In this document: positions 1,245 through 44,206 of the stretch, in pieces
Layout: each line of letters starts with the position of its first letter
How positions within the stretch are numbered: the first letter of the stretch is position 1
Assembly: GCA_028824555.1 (NCBI GenBank)
Contig: JAPPDJ010000055.1
Coordinates: 1-49,260, forward strand
DNA from: Gammaproteobacteria bacterium
GTDB taxonomy: Bacteria; Pseudomonadota; Gammaproteobacteria; Pseudomonadales; Azotimanducaceae
Reading direction: 5' to 3'
Length of the DNA: 49,260 nt
Program-made: the position numbers and the translations under genes
The notes under the pieces: generated by a model
Databases searched by the model: none
The model's input: only the letters and a program-made list of their open reading frames with translations
Told to the model about the DNA's origin: nothing

Positions 1245-3851
1245 ATGCCGGCACCACTCGCGGGCCTTCGAATAGCCGACCTGTCAACTAGGCTGTCCGG
1301 AGCCTTCGCGGCGAGACTCTTCGGCGACTTCGGCGCCGACGTGCTGCTAGTGGAGCCACCGGACGGCCACCCACTTCGTTCCTTGCCGCCTTTCGCTGAC
1401 GACACCCCAGGCACCGCCCGCAGCGTCGCCCACGCCTACTTCCATTGGAACAAGCGCTCGGTGGTGTGTGCCGACGAGACCGAGGTGCGGGCGGCCATCA
1501 CCGGCGCCGACGTGATCGTAACCACCTGCGACGCACCCGCTCCCGAGCGTGCCGAGACCTTGGCTTCACTCCCCGCAGGCGCGGTGCATCTGTCCATCAC
1601 GCCGCACGGCCTCACCGACCCTCTCACCGGCACGCCCGGCAACAACCTCACCATGAGCGCCCGCGTCGGTTGGGCCTCCATCAACGGCGTAGCCGGCGAG
1701 CCGCCGCTGCAGTTGCCCCGCGACCAAGCCGGTGTGGTCGGCGGGGTTGCCGGTTTCATCACCGCCTGCGCGGCACTGCGCCGCCGCCACGCTGGCGACA
1801 CAGAGCTCGTGGACGTGAGCGAACTCGAAGCCTTCGCCCTAACCGTGCATCCGTGGGGCGTGGCCGCCGTGTATCAAGGCGTCGGGACGAGGAGCCTTCA
1901 GCCCGGGGGAGCGCGAGGGGCTTCCCCTCGCGAGAGGAGCCTTCAGCCCGGGGGAGCGCGAGGGGCTTCCCCTCGGGAGAGGAGCCTTCAGCCCGGGGGT
2001 GCGCGAGGGGCTTCCCCACGCGAGAGAAGCCCAGGCGGCGGACGCAAGCGCGGCGATCCGGGCCCGTTGTGGGACCTGGCCGACGGCCAGATGAACTTCG
2101 GCCTCGCCGACTTCCACAACTGGACCGAAGCCATGGACGCGATGAACCTGCCGGAGCTCGGCCGCCGCCCGGAACTCATTCCCGACATCGGCCGCCACTC
2201 CCAGCCCATGAAGGACGTCGTGGTTGGCATGGCGCACACCTTGCCCAAGATCGAGCGCTGGCCGCTGTTCCACAAGCTCGCACAGCTTCGCTGCGTCATC
2301 GGCGTGGTGCAAGACATGGACGACATCACCAAGAACGAGCAACTCAAGGCGCGCGAGTTCTTCGTCACCACCGAACTCGAAGGCAAGCGGGTGCGGGCAC
2401 CCGGCGCCCCCGCCAAGCTCTCGCCCTCGCCCTGGCGACTCACCAAGCCTGCTCCCAACCTTGCGCCGCAAGCCAGGCCCGCCTGGGCCGAAGCGCCACC
2501 GGCCGAACTCGCGAAGGCACCCGTCGACGCTGCGAGCCTCGCGGACGGGCCACTAGCTGGCGTGCGCGTGCTGAGTTTCGGCCAAGCGTGGTCCGGCACG
2601 TTTGGAACGGAACTCCTGGCTCTCTTGGGGGCAGATGTGGTGCAGATAGCCTCCCTGCACCGACCCGACGCATTTCGTCGCATTCGCAACACCGTGCCGA
2701 AGGGGGTCGAGCACGCAACCCGGCTTCAACACGCCGCCAACACCCAAGGCCACTACAACTCCGTCAACTTGCACAAGCGCGAAATCACCTTGGATCTGCG
2801 CAAGGACCGCGGCCGGGAGATCCTCTGGCAGTTGCTTGCCAAGTTCGACATCGTCGCGGACAACTTCCGCCCGGGCGTGCTGCCCTCGTGGGGCATCACC
2901 CTCGAGAAGCTGCATCGGCTGCGCCCAGGCATGATCTGGGCTTCGATTTCGGGCTATGGCGAGTCAGGCCCTTACCGCGACTATCCCGCCAATGGAGCCA
3001 CCACGGAACCCATGGCGGGGCTGTCATCGCTGCATGGCTACGAAGGCGAGGTTCCCATCGAGGAGTCCCCGGACGGCGTTCCGCGCCAGCGCGGCCCCGC
3101 CATGAACACCGGCGGCCTGTTCCCAGACCCGGTGGGCGGCTATTTCCTCGTCGCCACCATCATGGCGGCGCTGGCGCATCGGGACCGCACCGGCGAGGCA
3201 CAGCGGGTGGACCTATCGATGATGGAGTCCGTCGCCGCCGTGGTGGGCGATGCCTTGATCGAATACGACGCAACCGGCCGCAAGCCGGGGCCGCGCGGCA
3301 ACCACCATCCGCGCATTGCACCGCATGCCGTCTATCCGGCCCGGGACGGCGAATGGCTGGCGCTCGCCGCCGAAACCGAGGCCGCATGGCGTGCGTTCGT
3401 CGTCCACACAGGAGAGCCGCGCCTGGGTTCCCCGCAGTTCGCAACCGAGGCGTTGCGCAAAGCCAACGAGTCTGAACTCGACGAGGTCATCGGCGAGTGG
3501 AGCCAAGGCCAGGACGCCTTCGCCGCGGAGCACGAACTGGGCCAGCTTGGCCTCTGCGCCGCCAGAGTCACGCCCCTCTACGAAATCTACAGCCGCCCCG
3601 ACCCCCACTTCGCCGAGTCTGGCTTCGTCAGCCAAATCGACCACCCGGAGGCCGGCCCCACTTGGCTACCTGGTCGCCCCTGGCGCTTCTCCGCCGCCCC
3701 CTCAACACCCATCCGCGGCGCTCCGTGCGTCGGTGAGCACAGCCGCGAAGTCCTGGCACACGAGCTCGGCATCGACGACACCGCTTACGAAGAACTCGTG
3801 GCGACCGGCATAACCGGCACCTTGGACGAGGCACCCAAGCACGGCTACTAA
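1245..3851 (+). CDS. tandem CaiB/BaiF (class III) CoA-transferase with in-frame repeat insertion
   Basis: 868-residue protein made of two class III CoA-transferase units, roughly residues 1-400 and 430-868, each starting with an LAGLR/LAGVR type segment. Single-domain relatives are about 400 residues. The C-terminal unit looks complete: NTGGLFPDPVGGYF contains the Asp expected to form the acyl anhydride. The N-terminal unit has RDQAGVVGG in the matching place. Residues about 216-261 are three copies of a 15-residue repeat (RSLQPGGARGASPRE) encoded by a 45-bp DNA repeat found elsewhere in the window; this looks like an insertion in a loop before PLWDLADG. A purine-rich AGAAGGGG lies just upstream of the ATG. 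Substrates are not predictable. Confidence 0.87.
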   Translation: MPAPLAGLRIADLSTRLSGAFAARLFGDFGADVLLVEPPDGHPLRSLPPFADDTPGTARSVAHAYFHWNKRSVVCADETEVRAAITGADVIVTTCDAPAPERAETLASLPAGAVHLSITPHGLTDPLTGTPGNNLTMSARVGWASINGVAGEPPLQLPRDQAGVVGGVAGFITACAALRRRHAGDTELVDVSELEAFALTVHPWGVAAVYQGVGTRSLQPGGARGASPRERSLQPGGARGASPRERSLQPGGARGASPRERSPGGGRKRGDPGPLWDLADGQMNFGLADFHNWTEAMDAMNLPELGRRPELIPDIGRHSQPMKDVVVGMAHTLPKIERWPLFHKLAQLRCVIGVVQDMDDITKNEQLKAREFFVTTELEGKRVRAPGAPAKLSPSPWRLTKPAPNLAPQARPAWAEAPPAELAKAPVDAASLADGPLAGVRVLSFGQAWSGTFGTELLALLGADVVQIASLHRPDAFRRIRNTVPKGVEHATRLQHAANTQGHYNSVNLHKREITLDLRKDRGREILWQLLAKFDIVADNFRPGVLPSWGITLEKLHRLRPGMIWASISGYGESGPYRDYPANGATTEPMAGLSSLHGYEGEVPIEESPDGVPRQRGPAMNTGGLFPDPVGGYFLVATIMAALAHRDRTGEAQRVDLSMMESVAAVVGDALIEYDATGRKPGPRGNHHPRIAPHAVYPARDGEWLALAAETEAAWRAFVVHTGEPRLGSPQFATEALRKANESELDEVIGEWSQGQDAFAAEHELGQLGLCAARVTPLYEIYSRPDPHFAESGFVSQIDHPEAGPTWLPGRPWRFSAAPSTPIRGAPCVGEHSREVLAHELGIDDTAYEELVATGITGTLDEAPKHGY
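1892..2026 (+). repeat. 45-bp tandem repeat, 3 copies, inside the CoA-transferase gene
   Basis: Three consecutive 45-bp units starting at 1892, 1937 and 1982. Each carries the hairpin core GCGAGGGGCTTCCCCTCGC; the third copy has a substitution that weakens it (CCCCACGC). The reading frame through the repeat is RSLQPGGARGASPRE, a different frame from that used at 39.4 and 41.6 kb. Unit length is a multiple of three, so the host frame stays open. Confidence 0.93.
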
Positions 3852-3863
3852 CGCACTTTTCCT

Positions 3864-3932
3864 GTCACTCCCCCCTCGAGGGGGAGTCGAGAAAAGCGTC
3901 CCCGCTTTTCTCGGAGGGGGGGCCGCCGACCC
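3864..3932 (+). repeat. REP-like element, family 1
   Basis: Single forward copy directly after the CoA-transferase gene, with both hairpins intact (CTCCCCC/GGGGGAG and GAGAAAAGCG/CGCTTTTCTC) and the GGCCGCCGACCC tail. It could stabilise or end the transcript, though no T-tract follows. Confidence 0.75.
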
Positions 3933-3973
3933 AACGCCCGGACACCCCAATCCCCGAACGAAGCCCCTCCTAG

Positions 3974-38636: not shown

Positions 38637-40547
38637 TTAGGGCAAAGCGACCTTGCCCGCGGCGTAGTCACGGGCCCATTGGAGGTGCCAGTCATTGGTG
38701 TCGTCTGATTCGACGGGCACGAACTGGGCGGCGGTCGCGAGGGGGGCTCGGCTGGCGTGGTGATAGACGATGCGCTCGGTTGTGACGCCTTCGGTCAGTT
38801 CGAGAAAGAGTGGGATGTAATCGGTGCCGCCGGCGAAGACGAGGCGGCTGGTTCCTTCGCTAGGCAGGCGGCGGAGGTCATTGTAGGAATCTCGTGGGCG
38901 CCGGCGTTTGTAGGTGGCTACGCCGTTGCTGAACGTAATGTCGTAGGTTGGGGTGAGGAAGTCCGACTCGATGAGACCCCAGCCGGCCGAGAGGATGAAA
39001 AGGTTCTCGGGCTCGACCCCCTCTGCCAGCGTGCGATAGGCGTCGTCTTCGTATAGCCGCCAGGCTGGCAACAGACCCAAGGGATTGTCTTCGGGCGTAC
39101 CGTTGTAGGCGACAAGTGCGTCCCGGAAGGTCTGGATGCCGTCGGCGCGGTCGTCGGGTCGGCGATAGGCCATTCCCGGGTCGCTCGGCGCAACGCCCGG
39201 TTCGGCCACGAACACGACAGGGCGGCCGTCGGGCAGAACCATGTGGCCGGCACTCGCTACCTTGTCTTCGCCGCCCTGAATCACCACCACGGTTCTGGGC
39301 GGGCCCGAGTATCTAGTCCGGGGAGCCATTGCGGCGGTTCCCGCATCGGCTGCGGGCGCAGTTGGCGGCATAGCAGCACGTGCTTCGGCCACGGCGGGCG
39401 GCGCCTCAGCCGTCGCAGGAGGAGTTGGGACGTTGCCCCGCGTTGAGGGCTCTTGCTGCGAGGGGAAGCCCCTCGTGCTCCCCCGCGCTGAGGGCTCTTT
39501 CATCGAGGGGAAGCCCCTCGTGCTCCCCCGCGCTGAGGGCTCCTTCATCGAGGGGAAGCCCCTCGTGCTCCCCCGCGCTGAGGGCTCCTGCCAAGCCGGC
39601 TCCGTCGCTGGTGGCGCGGCAGCCGGTGCCGCCTCCTCGCCGGCAGTCACGTCCGAGAGAGCAAAGGTGAATTGGGTGCTGGCGCCAACTCGCGCACCCT
39701 CTTGGTGAACAATCGTCACGTCCGCCAAAGCGGCGAACTTGCGCCCGCGCAAGGCGTTTACCACGCTGGCGTATCGGTTTTGCAGCCCCATTTCGTTGTG
39801 CAGGTCGCCGGCGCGCACGGTCACCGTTTGCTGGTTCGCGTCTCTCGCCGGCGCGATCACGGTGGCGAAGGTAAACAGGCGAATGCGGTCCGCTTCGCTG
39901 CGGGCCTCTTCGGCGCCGGCAGGGGGGCTGGCGGGAGCGCCCGCTTCTGTCGTGGGGGTGGTATCGCTGCCTTCGCTGTCGCTGTCGCCTGTGGCGGCTT
40001 CCTCAGCGGCCTTCTGCAAACCGCCGGAACGAAAGAAGGTGAGGGTGGCGGAGTGCAGGTTCACTTCCTGCGTGGACCAGCCGGCCTTGAGCCAGGCGTT
40101 GGATTGGCTCTTGCCAGTGTTGGCCCACCAGGCGGGATAGATCAAGGCGGAGCGCGGCAGGGGATTGGCCAGAATGGATCGAATCTCGGCGAAGGTGGTC
40201 TTCCAGACATCGCCTTCGACGTCGCACAGGTGATGGTAAAGCGGGGCGTACTTCGGGCCGACACCGGGTGGTCGTTCCTTGGGGGTTGGCGGTACCCGGG
40301 CCTGGGGTGCAGGGGCGGACTCCTCCTTTGACGGGAGTCCCCTCGTGCGGGGCTCCTCCACAGGCACCCTCGGCGCCGCGTCCGTCCCGACAAGGTCGTC
40401 GATGCTCCCGGCCGGCTCAGCCGGCGCCCCGGATGCGGACCGACCAAGGACGAAGAGCCGACGCAGGAAGCCGACCGCACGCGCCAGCAAACCACGCGAA
40501 GCGGCTTGCTGTTGCTTCCGTTCGGTCGTGTCTGACGTCGAGGTCAC
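38637..40547 (-). CDS. multidomain protein: DUF7662-like, winged-helix-like and YaaA/DUF6884-like domains
   Basis: 636 residues, not a known architecture to me. Residues 97-175 (KYAPLYHHL, TFAEIRSIL, LPRSALIYPAWWAN, WLKAGW) look like DUF7662. Residues about 221-297 (TVTVRAGDLHNEMGLQNRYASVVNAL) resemble a small winged-helix DNA-binding domain. Residues 321-371 are 15-residue repeats (EPSARGSTRGFPSMK) from the 45-bp DNA repeat. Residues about 415-636 contain LFILSAGWGLIESDFLTPTYDITFS, like YaaA/DUF6884 proteins. Linkers are Ala/Pro rich. A GTG start is used; no clear ribosome site. Divergent from the glycosyltransferase. Function unknown; nucleic-acid related by inference. Confidence 0.65.
   Translation of the reverse strand: MTSTSDTTERKQQQAASRGLLARAVGFLRRLFVLGRSASGAPAEPAGSIDDLVGTDAAPRVPVEEPRTRGLPSKEESAPAPQARVPPTPKERPPGVGPKYAPLYHHLCDVEGDVWKTTFAEIRSILANPLPRSALIYPAWWANTGKSQSNAWLKAGWSTQEVNLHSATLTFFRSGGLQKAAEEAATGDSDSEGSDTTPTTEAGAPASPPAGAEEARSEADRIRLFTFATVIAPARDANQQTVTVRAGDLHNEMGLQNRYASVVNALRGRKFAALADVTIVHQEGARVGASTQFTFALSDVTAGEEAAPAAAPPATEPAWQEPSARGSTRGFPSMKEPSARGSTRGFPSMKEPSARGSTRGFPSQQEPSTRGNVPTPPATAEAPPAVAEARAAMPPTAPAADAGTAAMAPRTRYSGPPRTVVVIQGGEDKVASAGHMVLPDGRPVVFVAEPGVAPSDPGMAYRRPDDRADGIQTFRDALVAYNGTPEDNPLGLLPAWRLYEDDAYRTLAEGVEPENLFILSAGWGLIESDFLTPTYDITFSNGVATYKRRRPRDSYNDLRRLPSEGTSRLVFAGGTDYIPLFLELTEGVTTERIVYHHASRAPLATAAQFVPVESDDTNDWHLQWARDYAAGKVALP
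39433..39594 (-). repeat. 45-bp tandem repeat, 3 full and 2 partial copies, in frame
   Basis: Full units at 39445-39489, 39490-39534 and 39535-39579, with partial units on both sides. On the minus strand they encode EPSARGSTRGFPS followed by MK or QQ. The hairpin core CGAGGGG-CTT-CCCCTCG is intact in all. They lie in the Ala/Pro-rich linker of the DUF7662-like protein. A further deleted copy (PRTRGLPSKEE) is at 40325-40358. Confidence 0.92.
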
Positions 40548-40613
40548 GTCACAAATCTTATCAGGTGTTCCATAGCAACACGGTGCTAACCCAACTCCAA
40601 AGCAACTGCCCCG

Positions 40614-40640
40614 TAGGAGCGGGCTTGTCCCCGCCCATCT
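40614..40640 (+). repeat. palindromic element, family 3
   Basis: GTAGGAGCGGGCTTGTCCCCGCCC in the 191-base divergent gap between the DUF7662-like gene and the glycosyltransferase. The copy at 42605 has the same core and a similar right flank (CCCATNT-GAAT). Confidence 0.6.
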
Positions 40641-40738
40641 CGAATGTAACGCCAGAACCCGCATTGAACGCATCGACGAATTCTGGGAGCGCAACGACCT
40701 GTAGGTCCGCAAGCGCACCATGCTACTTTCTGCGCGCA

Positions 40739-42589
40739 ATGAGCCAATCCCGGACGATCCTTCGCCGCCTGAACCGCCTCGGTTGGCTGCTGGCAAACCT
40801 CGGCGCCTGCGTGCAGTTCGCTGGCGGCGCCGTCGGTTTCCTGAAGCGCGCCACGCGCACCTTGGCAGCGGGACAGTGGCGACATCTCGTGGCCTGGATG
40901 GTCATGGCGGTGAGCTACGTCGGCCGCACCGATAGCAAGCGGTATCGACACTGGCTGGCTAGGACGGCGCCGGCGCAGCCCCCCGATGGCCAAGTGAGCG
41001 CTGTGCTGGCGTCTGTGGGCGTGCCGGCTGGGCAATTTGGGGCATTTCTTGCGCTGATATCGGCACAGCGCAAGCCCTGGCTCGACCTCGTCATGGTCGT
41101 CGAGCAGGGGCAGCGCCGGCAGGTCGAGGCGCACTTCGAGGCGACGGGGCAGCAAGCGTGCATTGTTGACAGCGAAGGCAATGCCACCAGTGATTTGCTC
41201 CGTGGCCTGCGTCGGTCCATTGCGGAAAGCGAGGGACGCGTTCGCTACATCGCCTTGCTGGCTCCAGGCTGCATTCCGGGCGACATGCCCCTGGCAGCAG
41301 CGGGGAGCACACTGCTCTACGGGGACGAGGACGAAATCGACGACCGTGGCGAACGCAGCCGACCCCTGTTCAAGCCAGCCTTCTCGCCGGACCTGCTGCT
41401 CTACAGGGACTACATGTCGTCCTGTCTGGTGCTGACCACAGATCTCGCCCGCAGCGTTGCGGAACAGACGGAGCCAGCGGTTGCCGATCTTCACAGCCTT
41501 GCCTTGGTGCTGACAGAAGCCGCAGAGCGCGTGGAACACGTCGGTGCCTTCACGGTACATCGGTTGGTGCCGGAGCCCTCAGCTAGGGGGAGCACGAGGG
41601 CCTTCCCGTCGCAGCAAGAGCCCTCAGCGCGGGGGGGCTCGAGGGGCCTCCCCCCGAAAAAGAGCACCACAGCCGAGATTCCGGAGCATCTAGCCCGCCA
41701 TTTGCGCGGTTGCTACGGCGAACGGGCGACAGTGCAAAAGACTCGGGACGGCTGGACCTGCAGCTTCGGCTCTCGCGACTCCGGCGCTGACAGGGTGTCG
41801 ATCATCATCCCGACCCGAGACCGCATCGATTTGCTCGCGCCCTGCATCGAGGGAATCCACGCGACGAACCAAGGCTCCTTCGAGTGCATCATCATCGACA
41901 ACGGCTCGGTCGCCCCGGAAACCAAACGCTGGCTCGCCGGGGCGCCGGCGAGGTTTCCGGCACTCAAGGTGGTGGAGGCACCGGAACCGTTCAACTGGAG
42001 CCGACTCAACAACCAAGGCATGCGGCATGCCGAAGGGGACGTGTTCCTGTTCCTCAACAACGACACCGAGGCTGCGTGCGAAGGCTGGATCGATCGGCTC
42101 GCCGACGTAGCCCTGCGCCCGGATGTCGGCGCCGTCGGCGGCTTGCTGCTCTACCCGGACGGCCTCATCCAGCACGCTGGCGTCGTTACCGGCTTCGGTG
42201 GCTGCGCCGATCACATCTACGTCGGCACTCACCCGGATGCCGGCCAGCACATGTTCGTTCCGCCCACCGTGCCCCGCAACGTCTCGGCGGTGACCGGCGC
42301 CTGCCTCGCCGTGGCGCGCAGCACCGTGGATGCCATCGGCGGCTTCGACGAGGGCTACCGCGTCGTCGGCAGCGACGTCGAGTTCTGCATCCGAGCCATG
42401 CACGCCGGGCTCCGGAACGTCTATCTGCCGGATGTGCGGTTGGTGCACCACGAGTCGCAATCGCGCACGAAGAGGGACCCGGAAGCCGACGTCGAGCGCC
42501 TGCGGGCAATGATCGCGCAACGCCCTTCCGACCCTTACTTCAACCCGAAGCTGTCAATGATCTCGCTGTACCCCAGCTACCCCGTGTGA
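40739..42589 (+). CDS. glycosyltransferase with two GT2-like domains
   Basis: 616 residues. The C-terminal domain (about 353-600) is a GT2 transferase: VSIIIPTRDRIDLLAPCIEGI, ECIIIDNGS, FLFLNNDTE (the DxD-like metal site reads NND), VTGACLAVARS, GFDEGYRVVGSDVEFCIRA and LVHHES. The N-terminal part (about 85-270) is a degenerate second GT-A-like domain (LYGDEDEID). Two 15-residue repeats (279-308) sit exactly between the domains. Probably makes surface polysaccharide. The ATG at 40739 has no clear ribosome site. Confidence 0.85.
   Translation: MSQSRTILRRLNRLGWLLANLGACVQFAGGAVGFLKRATRTLAAGQWRHLVAWMVMAVSYVGRTDSKRYRHWLARTAPAQPPDGQVSAVLASVGVPAGQFGAFLALISAQRKPWLDLVMVVEQGQRRQVEAHFEATGQQACIVDSEGNATSDLLRGLRRSIAESEGRVRYIALLAPGCIPGDMPLAAAGSTLLYGDEDEIDDRGERSRPLFKPAFSPDLLLYRDYMSSCLVLTTDLARSVAEQTEPAVADLHSLALVLTEAAERVEHVGAFTVHRLVPEPSARGSTRAFPSQQEPSARGGSRGLPPKKSTTAEIPEHLARHLRGCYGERATVQKTRDGWTCSFGSRDSGADRVSIIIPTRDRIDLLAPCIEGIHATNQGSFECIIIDNGSVAPETKRWLAGAPARFPALKVVEAPEPFNWSRLNNQGMRHAEGDVFLFLNNDTEAACEGWIDRLADVALRPDVGAVGGLLLYPDGLIQHAGVVTGFGGCADHIYVGTHPDAGQHMFVPPTVPRNVSAVTGACLAVARSTVDAIGGFDEGYRVVGSDVEFCIRAMHAGLRNVYLPDVRLVHHESQSRTKRDPEADVERLRAMIAQRPSDPYFNPKLSMISLYPSYPV
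41573..41662 (+). repeat. 45-bp tandem repeat, 2 copies, in frame
   Basis: Units at 41573 and 41618, encoding EPSARGSTRAFPSQQ and EPSARGGSRGLPPKK, the same reading frame of the repeat as in the DUF7662-like protein. These copies are more diverged than the others and the hairpin is partly broken. Confidence 0.9.
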
Positions 42590-42711: not shown

Positions 42712-42798
42712 TGGTGCCGAAGAGAGGACTCGAACCTCCACGAGCGAACGCTCACCACCCCCTCAAGATGGCGTGTCTACCAATTTCACCACTTCGGC
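42712..42798 (-). tRNA. tRNA-Leu (anticodon GAG)
   Basis: 87-base class II tRNA on the minus strand. The acceptor GCCGAAG pairs with CTTCGGC, the D region reads TGGTGAAATTGGTAGACACGC, the anticodon loop is CTTGAGG, a long variable arm follows, then GGTTCGAGTCC and an encoded CCA. Position after secG is classical. Confidence 0.96.
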
Positions 42799-42846: not shown

Positions 42847-43200
42847 TCAGAAGTCGGGGATGTCGGAATCTACCGAATCGGGTTCGGTAGTCAAGTCTGG
42901 CGCCTCCGGCGGGGCCGGGGCCTCGAGTTCGGGAAGCCCCAGCGTTTGCATGGAGGCGGCGCGTTCCTTGGCCGTCCATGCCAGGCCAAAGGAGATGACG
43001 AAGAAGCCGATGGCGAGCCAGACCGTCATCTTGGTGAGGAACGAGGCCGCACCGGCGCTGCCGAACATGGTGTTGGCGCCGCCAGCACCGAATGCCGCGC
43101 CCACATCGGCGCCCTTGCCTTGCTGCAGGAGCACCAAGACGCCGAGCGCGATCGCATCGGCGACGAGCAGGATCAGGAGGACAGTTTCGATTGTGCTCAC
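42847..43200 (-). CDS. secG: preprotein translocase subunit SecG
   Basis: 117-residue inner-membrane subunit of SecYEG. Two membrane segments (VLLILLVADAIALGVLVLL and MTVWLAIGFFVISFGLAW) flank QQGKGADVGAAFGAGGANTMFGSAGAASFL, the typical SecG loop. The tail is Pro/Glu/Asp rich. The start is GTG (STIETVLL) with GAGGG upstream; the long in-frame upstream extension through the 45-bp repeats is rejected as non-coding. Confidence 0.95.
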   Translation of the reverse strand: MSTIETVLLILLVADAIALGVLVLLQQGKGADVGAAFGAGGANTMFGSAGAASFLTKMTVWLAIGFFVISFGLAWTAKERAASMQTLGLPELEAPAPPEAPDLTTEPDSVDSDIPDF

Positions 43201-43228
43201 TTGGCAACCCTCATTTCGTTCCCATCGG

Positions 43229-43457
43229 CTCTTTTTTCGAGGGGAAGCCCCTCGCGCTCCCCCGCGCTGAAGGCTCTTTCTGCGAGGGGAAGCCCCTCGC
43301 GCTCCCCCGCGCTGAAGGCTCTTTCTGCGAGGGGAAGCCCCTCGCGCTCCCCCGCGCTGAAGGCTCTTTCTGCGAGGGGAAGCCCCTCGCGCTCCCCCGC
43401 GCTGAAGGCTCTTTCTGCGAGGGGAAGCCCCTCGCGCTCCCCCGCGCTGAAGGCTCT
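43229..43457 (-). repeat. 45-bp tandem repeat, 5 nearly identical copies, between tpiA and secG
   Basis: Hairpin cores start at 43239, 43284, 43329, 43374 and 43419. Units are almost identical, suggesting recent expansion or homogenisation. The array starts directly after the tpiA TGA (the unit's GAGCC follows the stop) and ends about 30 bases before the secG GTG. Because frames stay open, it would read LQRGGARGASPRRKS if translated. Confidence 0.93.
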
Positions 43458-44206
43458 CATTGGCCGGCCCCCGCCGCCGCGCAAATGGCGGCGAACTCGT
43501 GCGGGTCCAGTGACGCTCCGCCAACCAAGCCGCCGTCGATGTCGACTTGCGCGAACAGAGCCAGCGCATTGGCCGCCTTGACGCTGCCGCCATAGACGAT
43601 GCGCACGGCGGTGGCCACATCCGCATCCTCTGCCGCCAAGCGTTGCCGGATGGTGGCATGCATCTCGGCAGCTTGCTCAGGACTCGCCGTCACACCCGTG
43701 CCGATGGCCCACACCGGTTCATAGGCCACCGCCGCATCGGCGAATGGCGCTGCGCCGGAGTCGTTCAGCACCGCATCGAGCTGCCGCAGCACGGTCTCCT
43801 TGGCGTCGCCTGCACGTCGTTCGGCCAAGGTTTCACCCACGCAAAGGACCGGCATCAATCCGGCGCGGAGCGCGGCCCGGAACTTGCCCGCAACCACCGC
43901 GTCGTCCTCACCATGCATCGCCCGACGCTCCGAATGGCCGACGATGCAGTATGCCGCGCCCAAATCTGCCGCCATCTCGGCCGAGTGCTCGCCCGTGAAG
44001 GCGCCCTTTGCTTCGACACCAACGTCCTGGACGCCAAGGTGGACGTCTCCGGCAAAGGCGGAACCGAGCCGATCCAGGTACCCGAGGGGCGGACAGAATA
44101 CGACGTCCACGTCACTCGAGGGCTGCTGCCATGCGCGCACAAATGCATCGATGGCGGCCACCGAGGCGTTCATCTTCCAGTTCGCCGCCACCAGCGCCCG
44201 CCGCAT
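43457..44206 (-). CDS. tpiA: triosephosphate isomerase
   Basis: 249-residue glycolytic TIM barrel interconverting DHAP and glyceraldehyde 3-phosphate. ANWKMN carries the catalytic Lys, CIVGHSERR the His, VAYEPVWAIGTG the Glu and loop 6, and IVYGGSVKAAN the phosphate site. Normal length. secG follows across the repeat array. Confidence 0.97.
   Translation of the reverse strand: MRRALVAANWKMNASVAAIDAFVRAWQQPSSDVDVVFCPPLGYLDRLGSAFAGDVHLGVQDVGVEAKGAFTGEHSAEMAADLGAAYCIVGHSERRAMHGEDDAVVAGKFRAALRAGLMPVLCVGETLAERRAGDAKETVLRQLDAVLNDSGAAPFADAAVAYEPVWAIGTGVTASPEQAAEMHATIRQRLAAEDADVATAVRIVYGGSVKAANALALFAQVDIDGGLVGGASLDPHEFAAICAAAGAGQ

Follow-up and report, generated by a model that had tools for sequence, protein, structure and literature searches.

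The CoA-transferase locus

The window analysed here (the whole stretch of DNA under study, 49,260 nt) comes from a genome of 4.2 Mb in 182 contigs (G000), which has two sister species in our set (G009 and G014). At 1245..3851 on the plus strand the window encodes a fused double CaiB/BaiF (family III) CoA-transferase of 868 aa (Pfam PF02515, CoA_transf_3, E 7.4e-130), and inside this gene, at 1893..2027 on the same strand, TRF and nhmmer place an array of three 45-bp units (SLQPGGARGASPRER; 1893-1937, 1938-1982 and 1983-2027). TRF scores the array as 3.2 copies at 1889-2031 with 94% matches. The ORF runs on across the array with no stop, as the initial annotation had proposed, and the array is read in unit frame +1; the units here are without the TAG that other copies have.

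We found three units in the CoA-transferase of G000, one in each of the two sister-species orthologues (92-95% identity across the matched parts), and none in 17 other aligned sequences, of which 10 are orthologues near 70% identity and 7 are more distant. All 17 sequences without the unit also lack the segment, the outcome expected of an inserted repeat in the initial annotation. Against each of the 10 unit-free orthologues, in which both flanks align, the net insertion is 135 bp; compared with the sister orthologues, which have one unit each, it is 87 bp.

Two further features of this locus were noted. This one protein has between 28 and 84 matches in every one of the 16 genus genomes, a number that points to a large expansion of family III CoA-transferases there. 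A second palindrome type, longer and intergenic (CCTGTCACTCCC...GGAGTCGAG...GCGTCCCCGC...GCCGCCGACCCAA), lies near the gene at about 110-200 and 3858-3935 of the window.

Other arrays and features of the window

The same tandem unit had also been placed at 39.4, 41.6 and 43.2 kb. All three arrays are real, the second being degenerate and the third non-coding. The first (39436..39587, minus strand; TRF, 3.4 copies, and nhmmer) has three units and a partial one (PSARGSTRGFPS...) in frame in an ORF at 38637-40796(-) with a DUF7662 match and a sub-threshold DUF6884 match; its right-hand coding score is weak (-6). Orthologous arrays have three units in G014 and one in G009. A possible single decayed unit in the same ORF (40317-40359, minus strand) was seen by eye and is not called by nhmmer. 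The second array consists of two degenerate units at about 41574..41663 (plus strand), in frame in a glycosyltransferase ORF at 40268-42589(+); it was missed by TRF and by two 3-mismatch patterns, and among these methods nhmmer alone found the two units. The site has four units in G014 and one in G009. The third array (43231..43457, minus strand; TRF, 5.1 copies at 43227-43457) consists of five units, nearly identical to one another, that lie between secG and the stop codon of tpiA. Both neighbours are co-oriented with it, triosephosphate isomerase gene tpiA upstream (43457..44206, minus strand; PF00121, E 5.4e-86) and secG downstream (42847..43209, minus strand; PF03840, E 1.5e-20); G014 has about two units at this site and G009 none.

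In the window, a 22-mer core of the unit has 11 matches with up to 3 mismatches against 0.00 expected (100 shuffles), so the arrays are not due to chance. In an Rfam scan of the window the gathering score was reached by a tRNA alone, encoded between the glycosyltransferase gene and secG (42715-42798, minus strand), and the 45-bp unit matched no curated family. A conventional GTAG-type REP (GTAGGAGCGGGCTTGTCCCCGC; 40613-40634, plus strand) belongs to a separate palindrome family, with 16 matches genome-wide at up to 3 mismatches.

Distribution of the unit

A shorter core of the unit has 66 matches in G000 against 1 for the reversed pattern, a few of the 66 being the two strands of one palindrome. 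By nhmmer, the fetched regions hold 72 units in 39 arrays in G000, 50 in 29 in G014 and 36 in 21 in G009. This sister set of 158 units and 89 arrays corresponds to 55 sites, 26 of which are common to at least two sister species; copy number differs at 14 of these 26, two of them at contig ends. The arrays thus do change in size, as the initial annotation implied in calling them expanding.

When up to 3 mismatches were allowed, pattern searches recovered the unit from G000, G009 and G014 only (3 of 58 genomes), and among 369 genomes of the class from G000 only. An exact search for the 26-mer core hit five stretches, all of them from Gammaproteobacteria bacterium SB0665_bin_27 or SB0662_bin_60, bins that we take to be from sponges. 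A very young family restricted to one clade, as these searches suggested, was overturned by the matches of a covariance model trained on 32 units. With a cut-off of E 1e-3 the model found relatives in 38 of the family's 200 genomes, spread over 5 of its 37 genera and including the whole genus of 16 genomes. This count is based on rough E-values with no decoy control and on at most the best 31 candidates scored per genome, and a few of the 38 have weak matches only. Arrays were confirmed by TRF in loci fetched from G006, G007, G008, G011, G012, G069, G096, G110, G151 and G172. A focused model search (E up to 1e-4, at most the best 150 candidates scored per genome) gave at least 159 matches in G007, at least 98 in G096 and at least 33 in G110. 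From regions chosen among the best matches we assembled a diverged set of 216 anchored units in 90 arrays, after dropping 13 unanchored hits of 229.

Structure of the unit

The unit is made up of AGCCYTCAGC, a G-rich spacer, an 8-bp stem (GCGAGGGG/CCCCTCGC) with a free loop of 3-4 nt, and an AGA-rich tail. Arm, loop and tail lengths vary by lineage but offset one another, and each commonest layout sums to 45: 20+8+3+8 bases and a 6-base tail in G000 (38/53 distinct units), 18+8+3+8 and a tail of 8 in G096 (45/54), and 18+8+4+8 and a tail of 7 in G007 (65/85). Same-strand neighbours are exactly 45 bp apart in 54 of 67 pairs in the sister set and in 110 of 126 in the diverged set. The length of 45 bp is not absolute, since TRF periods in single-contig genomes include 44 (G110) and 42 (G151) besides 45.

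All eight stem pairs form in the best register in 202 of 300 distinct units, against a shuffled mean of 0.7 and a largest value of 3 (20 rounds). The stem is identical in 188 of the 300, and the loops vary (CCT, CTT, GCA, TGT, CTTG and others). Among 32 aligned units 96.9% of stem cells are paired; covariation is slight, only one pair showing one double change. Folding of single-stranded DNA gave z values of -0.83 for a 50-nt unit, -1.4 and -2.1 for the two strands of the window array, and -6.0 for an 85-nt composite.

Composite repeats occur as well. Two palindromes nested in the unit make a 96-bp repeat, the nested module of which also stands free in the genome (L170, L171), with single copies in G008 and G010. 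In G006 a different nested palindrome makes a 111-bp composite unit in an HrpA-like helicase gene (L225, 1897-2121). Both composite lengths are multiples of three. Spacings are multiples of three in 54 of 56 intragenic cases (the exceptions are 44 and 112) against 109 of 128 elsewhere (p 0.04 with both sets combined, 0.09 and 0.23 with the sets taken singly), which gives modest support to a reading-frame constraint on spacing.

Host genes and empty alleles

Sites were called intragenic by a conservative test, in which a hexamer coding model had to show the same frame on both flanks with no stop. By this test 22 of the 55 sister-set sites are intragenic, and 27 of the 83 non-edge arrays of the diverged set, from which 7 edge arrays had been dropped beforehand. 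The remaining sites and arrays are intergenic, at gene edges or undecided, and these outnumber the intragenic ones. Bacterial genomes generally have high coding density, and given this density the counts suggest that the unit is, if anything, depleted from genes. The genome-wide search did find further coding copies, in frame in several enzyme genes, as the initial annotation anticipated; its picture of arrays inside housekeeping-type enzymes fits the intragenic part of the family and not the family as a whole.

Among the sister-set hosts identified by Pfam are IleRS, RlmN, dihydrolipoyl acyltransferase (E2), aldo/keto reductase, PhyH, GDPD and an FGE-type protein; of the 20 ORFs scanned Pfam matched 19, and not every ORF is a proven host. 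Those in the diverged set include LeuRS, Lon, trigger factor (C-terminal), RsmH, an HrpA-like helicase, RecQ, RlmN, RodZ, and CcmH-type and LptA-type proteins (20 of 26 listed ORFs scanned, 18 with a match). The inserts lie between Pfam domains in RlmN, E2, RodZ (G007), Lon and the HrpA-like helicase, and inside domains in LeuRS (the editing domain), RsmH, GDPD and RecQ (the zinc domain).

Empty and filled alleles differ by exactly 45 bp in IleRS, in an FGE-type protein and at two G014 sites; the differences are not multiples of 45 for RlmN (141 bp), E2 (42 bp) and tpiA-secG (237 bp). The 15 extra residues of IleRS are found in G000 alone among 13 aligned orthologues, an alignment that leaves out G001 and G009 (no full orthologue) and G005 (partial). 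The IleRS of G013 (L152) has an unrelated short tandem duplication near the position of the G000 repeat. In RlmN, G000 and G007, a more distant member of the genus, each have three units after the same VLIPE codons, in different unit variants, and none is present in G009, which is close to G000; either units were inserted in parallel at a single tolerant position, or they were present early and later lost. Hardly any other sites appear to be common to the sister and diverged sets, both of which are samples only.

The empty, one-copy and many-copy alleles of the sister species, together with the copies in several genera, form a comparative set in which one could test how palindromic DNA gets into housekeeping genes, whether proteins acquire additional segments neutrally, and why the insertions keep to the direction of the gene. 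They also call for caution: where conserved enzymes of these bacteria differ in length, the cause can be repeats and not function.

Orientation

The unit is co-oriented with the gene in 46 of 49 intragenic cases, namely 21 of the 22 independent sister-set sites and 25 of the 27 diverged-set arrays (combined p 7e-11 against a null of 0.5 and 1e-7 against 0.6). A looser listing has 39 of 42 arrays co-oriented; its three TAG-bearing frame +1 units are all in one array (L043), which the stop filter removed. Among 128 full units the three forward frames are open in 86, 121 and 117 and the antisense frames in 125, 2 and 121, so stops alone predict a co-oriented share near 0.6 and not the 0.94 found. 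Replication-strand bias was considered as a cause of the co-orientation and rejected: in the single-contig genome G096, 14 of the 27 sites listed have the unit on the strand that GC skew marks as leading.

Proposed origin of the arrays

We propose, with a probability of roughly 0.72, that the inserted segment is a REP/RPE-like, lineage-restricted, non-autonomous palindromic element, tolerant of translation, whose arrays grow by slippage or unequal exchange. The proposal draws together the in-frame positions, the empty and filled alleles, the copy-number differences, the conserved hairpin and the 45-bp spacing across genera, all of which were observed. Single units would be copied into new sites, probably through a folded single-stranded intermediate, and would enter beside a short GGAG/GAGC-like sequence, which would then be found at both ends. 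Immediately before the unit stands a G in 73 of 76 cases, the next base out is G or A in 75 of 76, and a GAGC-like sequence is common after the array; these flanks fit a short target that is duplicated, or used again, on either side, in an order of events that we infer. The sister species differ in copy number by whole units, changes that would most simply come from slippage or unequal exchange. Most units have no stop in two or three of the forward frames and in two of the antisense frames, so that each unit inserted lengthens a gene by about 15 codons instead of destroying it. Insertions that damage the protein would be removed and tolerated ones, presumably neutral for the host, would be kept; the balanced indels that hold the unit at 45 bp may represent restoration of the reading frame.

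Several observations count against this proposal: no mobilising enzyme is tied to the unit, the spacing test is weak and has two exceptions, some allele differences are not multiples of 45, some inserts fall within Pfam domains, and the stem shows slight covariation only. The excess of co-orientation beyond the stop-codon prediction counts against the proposal as well, which leaves the bias unaccounted for. It would be explained if the element entered the non-template strand of transcribed DNA, or moved via an RNA intermediate, so that copies landed co-oriented with transcription. We consider such transcription-linked insertion tentatively. Besides the intragenic counts, it is favoured by those non-intragenic sister-set sites at which both flanks code one way (9 co-oriented against 1 opposite), and in G096 replication direction does not explain the bias. 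However, the non-intragenic arrays of the diverged set number 11 (+,+), 5 (-,-), 4 (+,-) and 2 (-,+) by the signs of their flanks, with 20 having one clear side (13 +, 7 -) and 14 none. Moreover, GAGGAG and GGAG are themselves enriched on the sense strand (2.6 times and 1.5 times; GGAGCC is not enriched), and against a null of 0.8 the co-orientation has p 0.012 combined and 0.10 for the sister set by itself. Part of the bias could also come from the TGA in one antisense frame or from selection against antisense peptides.

A broader joint reading would make the family a distinct class of coding-compatible mobile repeat, in which balanced indels keep the length at 45 bp (15 codons). Such a repeat would insert in the direction of transcription by a non-RAYT mechanism, amplify in tandem inside housekeeping genes, host nested palindromes mostly in multiples of three, and steadily lengthen proteins family-wide; we regard this as possible but not probable.

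Relation to known repeats

Palindromic repeats in frame in many unrelated genes are known as the RPEs of Rickettsia and their Wolbachia equivalent (PMC3767692, PMC10969869, PMC2996958). The 45-bp unit resembles them in its in-frame insertion into unrelated protein genes (at 22/55 sites and in 27/83 arrays) and in the absence of the segment from element-free orthologues (CoA-transferase, IleRS, RlmN and other alleles). It is set apart by description, RPEs being about 100-150 bp (PMC3767692) and the 45-bp unit GC-rich and in regular head-to-tail arrays. PARCELs, like our units, are tandem, palindromic, protein-coding and variable between related genomes, but are described as amphipathic repeats of 75 nt (25 residues), often in membrane proteins and generally outside recognisable housekeeping genes (PMC2996958), whereas the 45-bp unit gives 15-residue repeats in enzymes.

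The GTAG/CGTC REPs are likewise short stem-loops clustered inside ORFs, those of tRNA synthetases included (PMC3733652). As portrayed there, more than half of the intragenic inserts are dimers or grouped, and clusters in Thauera and R. conorii encode 43-82 residues, so the initial statement that coding palindromes elsewhere occur only as single copies was too strong. The 8-bp stem and 3-4-nt loop of our unit fall within the REP definition of a 5-13 bp stem and a small loop. The end tetranucleotide differs: no more than 14 of 300 distinct units have GTAG or CGTC, on either strand, close to an end, and the consensus sequences lack both. The 45-bp units also stand head to tail at fixed spacing, whereas those REPs are mainly inverted dimers, and the co-orientation with genes seen for our unit does not figure in the accessible parts of that account (PMC3733652). 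In-frame palindromes, grouped ones included, are thus already known, and what appears to be new is the fixed-spacing arrays of the 45-bp family and their co-orientation with genes. No published description of the family was found in the literature searched, largely open-access papers, in keeping with the earlier suggestion of an undescribed family.

That the units are classical REPs or REPINs mobilised by a RAYT tyrosine transposase is improbable. A REPIN is an inverted pair of REPs. REPINs are described as hairpin-forming, non-autonomous and extragenic, with RAYTs as single-copy genes (PMC8049555). The 45-bp unit is likewise a short, hairpin-forming, non-autonomous palindrome, GTAG-type REPs occur in the same genome (the 16 matches given above), and each of the three sister genomes has one Y1_Tnp match. 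However, our units are direct tandem repeats, often in genes, and inverted pairs do not appear to predominate among them (as the 110 of 126 same-strand neighbours 45 bp apart indicate). RAYT genes of GTAG REPs and REPINs are flanked by their repeat; no unit was found around the Y1_Tnp matches in any of the six loci searched, of which the three sister-genome loci span only 2.0-3.2 kb. Nor was there a Y1_Tnp match in G001, G005, G011, G012, G013 or G015, six genus members that bear the unit by the covariance model (G015 with weak unit matches, G001 being 81% complete). Because the Y1_Tnp loci are unit-free and these six members lack the gene match, no mobilising enzyme is tied to the unit. Close to the start of the RAYT-like Y1_Tnp match of G000 (L165, about 1330-2230, contig C24) lies a different inverted repeat (GGAGGGCGGGACGCCCTCC type), which may be the one cognate to it.

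Selection for the encoded peptide, as a spacer or as a localisation or interaction tag, is very unlikely as the reason for the arrays. Frame +3 (PSARGSARG.PS.EE) is used in 26 of the 46 co-oriented cases, more than one third (p 0.0015), the others being in +1 and +2. However, the use of all three forward frames argues against a peptide function, many arrays are outside genes, the host proteins are functionally unrelated, and insert-free orthologues are intact. An artefact of assembly in short-read metagenome bins, conceivable with error-prone tandem repeats and a genome in 182 contigs, is largely refuted, since arrays lie inside the single-contig genomes G096, G110, G151 and G012 and at orthologous sites of other assemblies.
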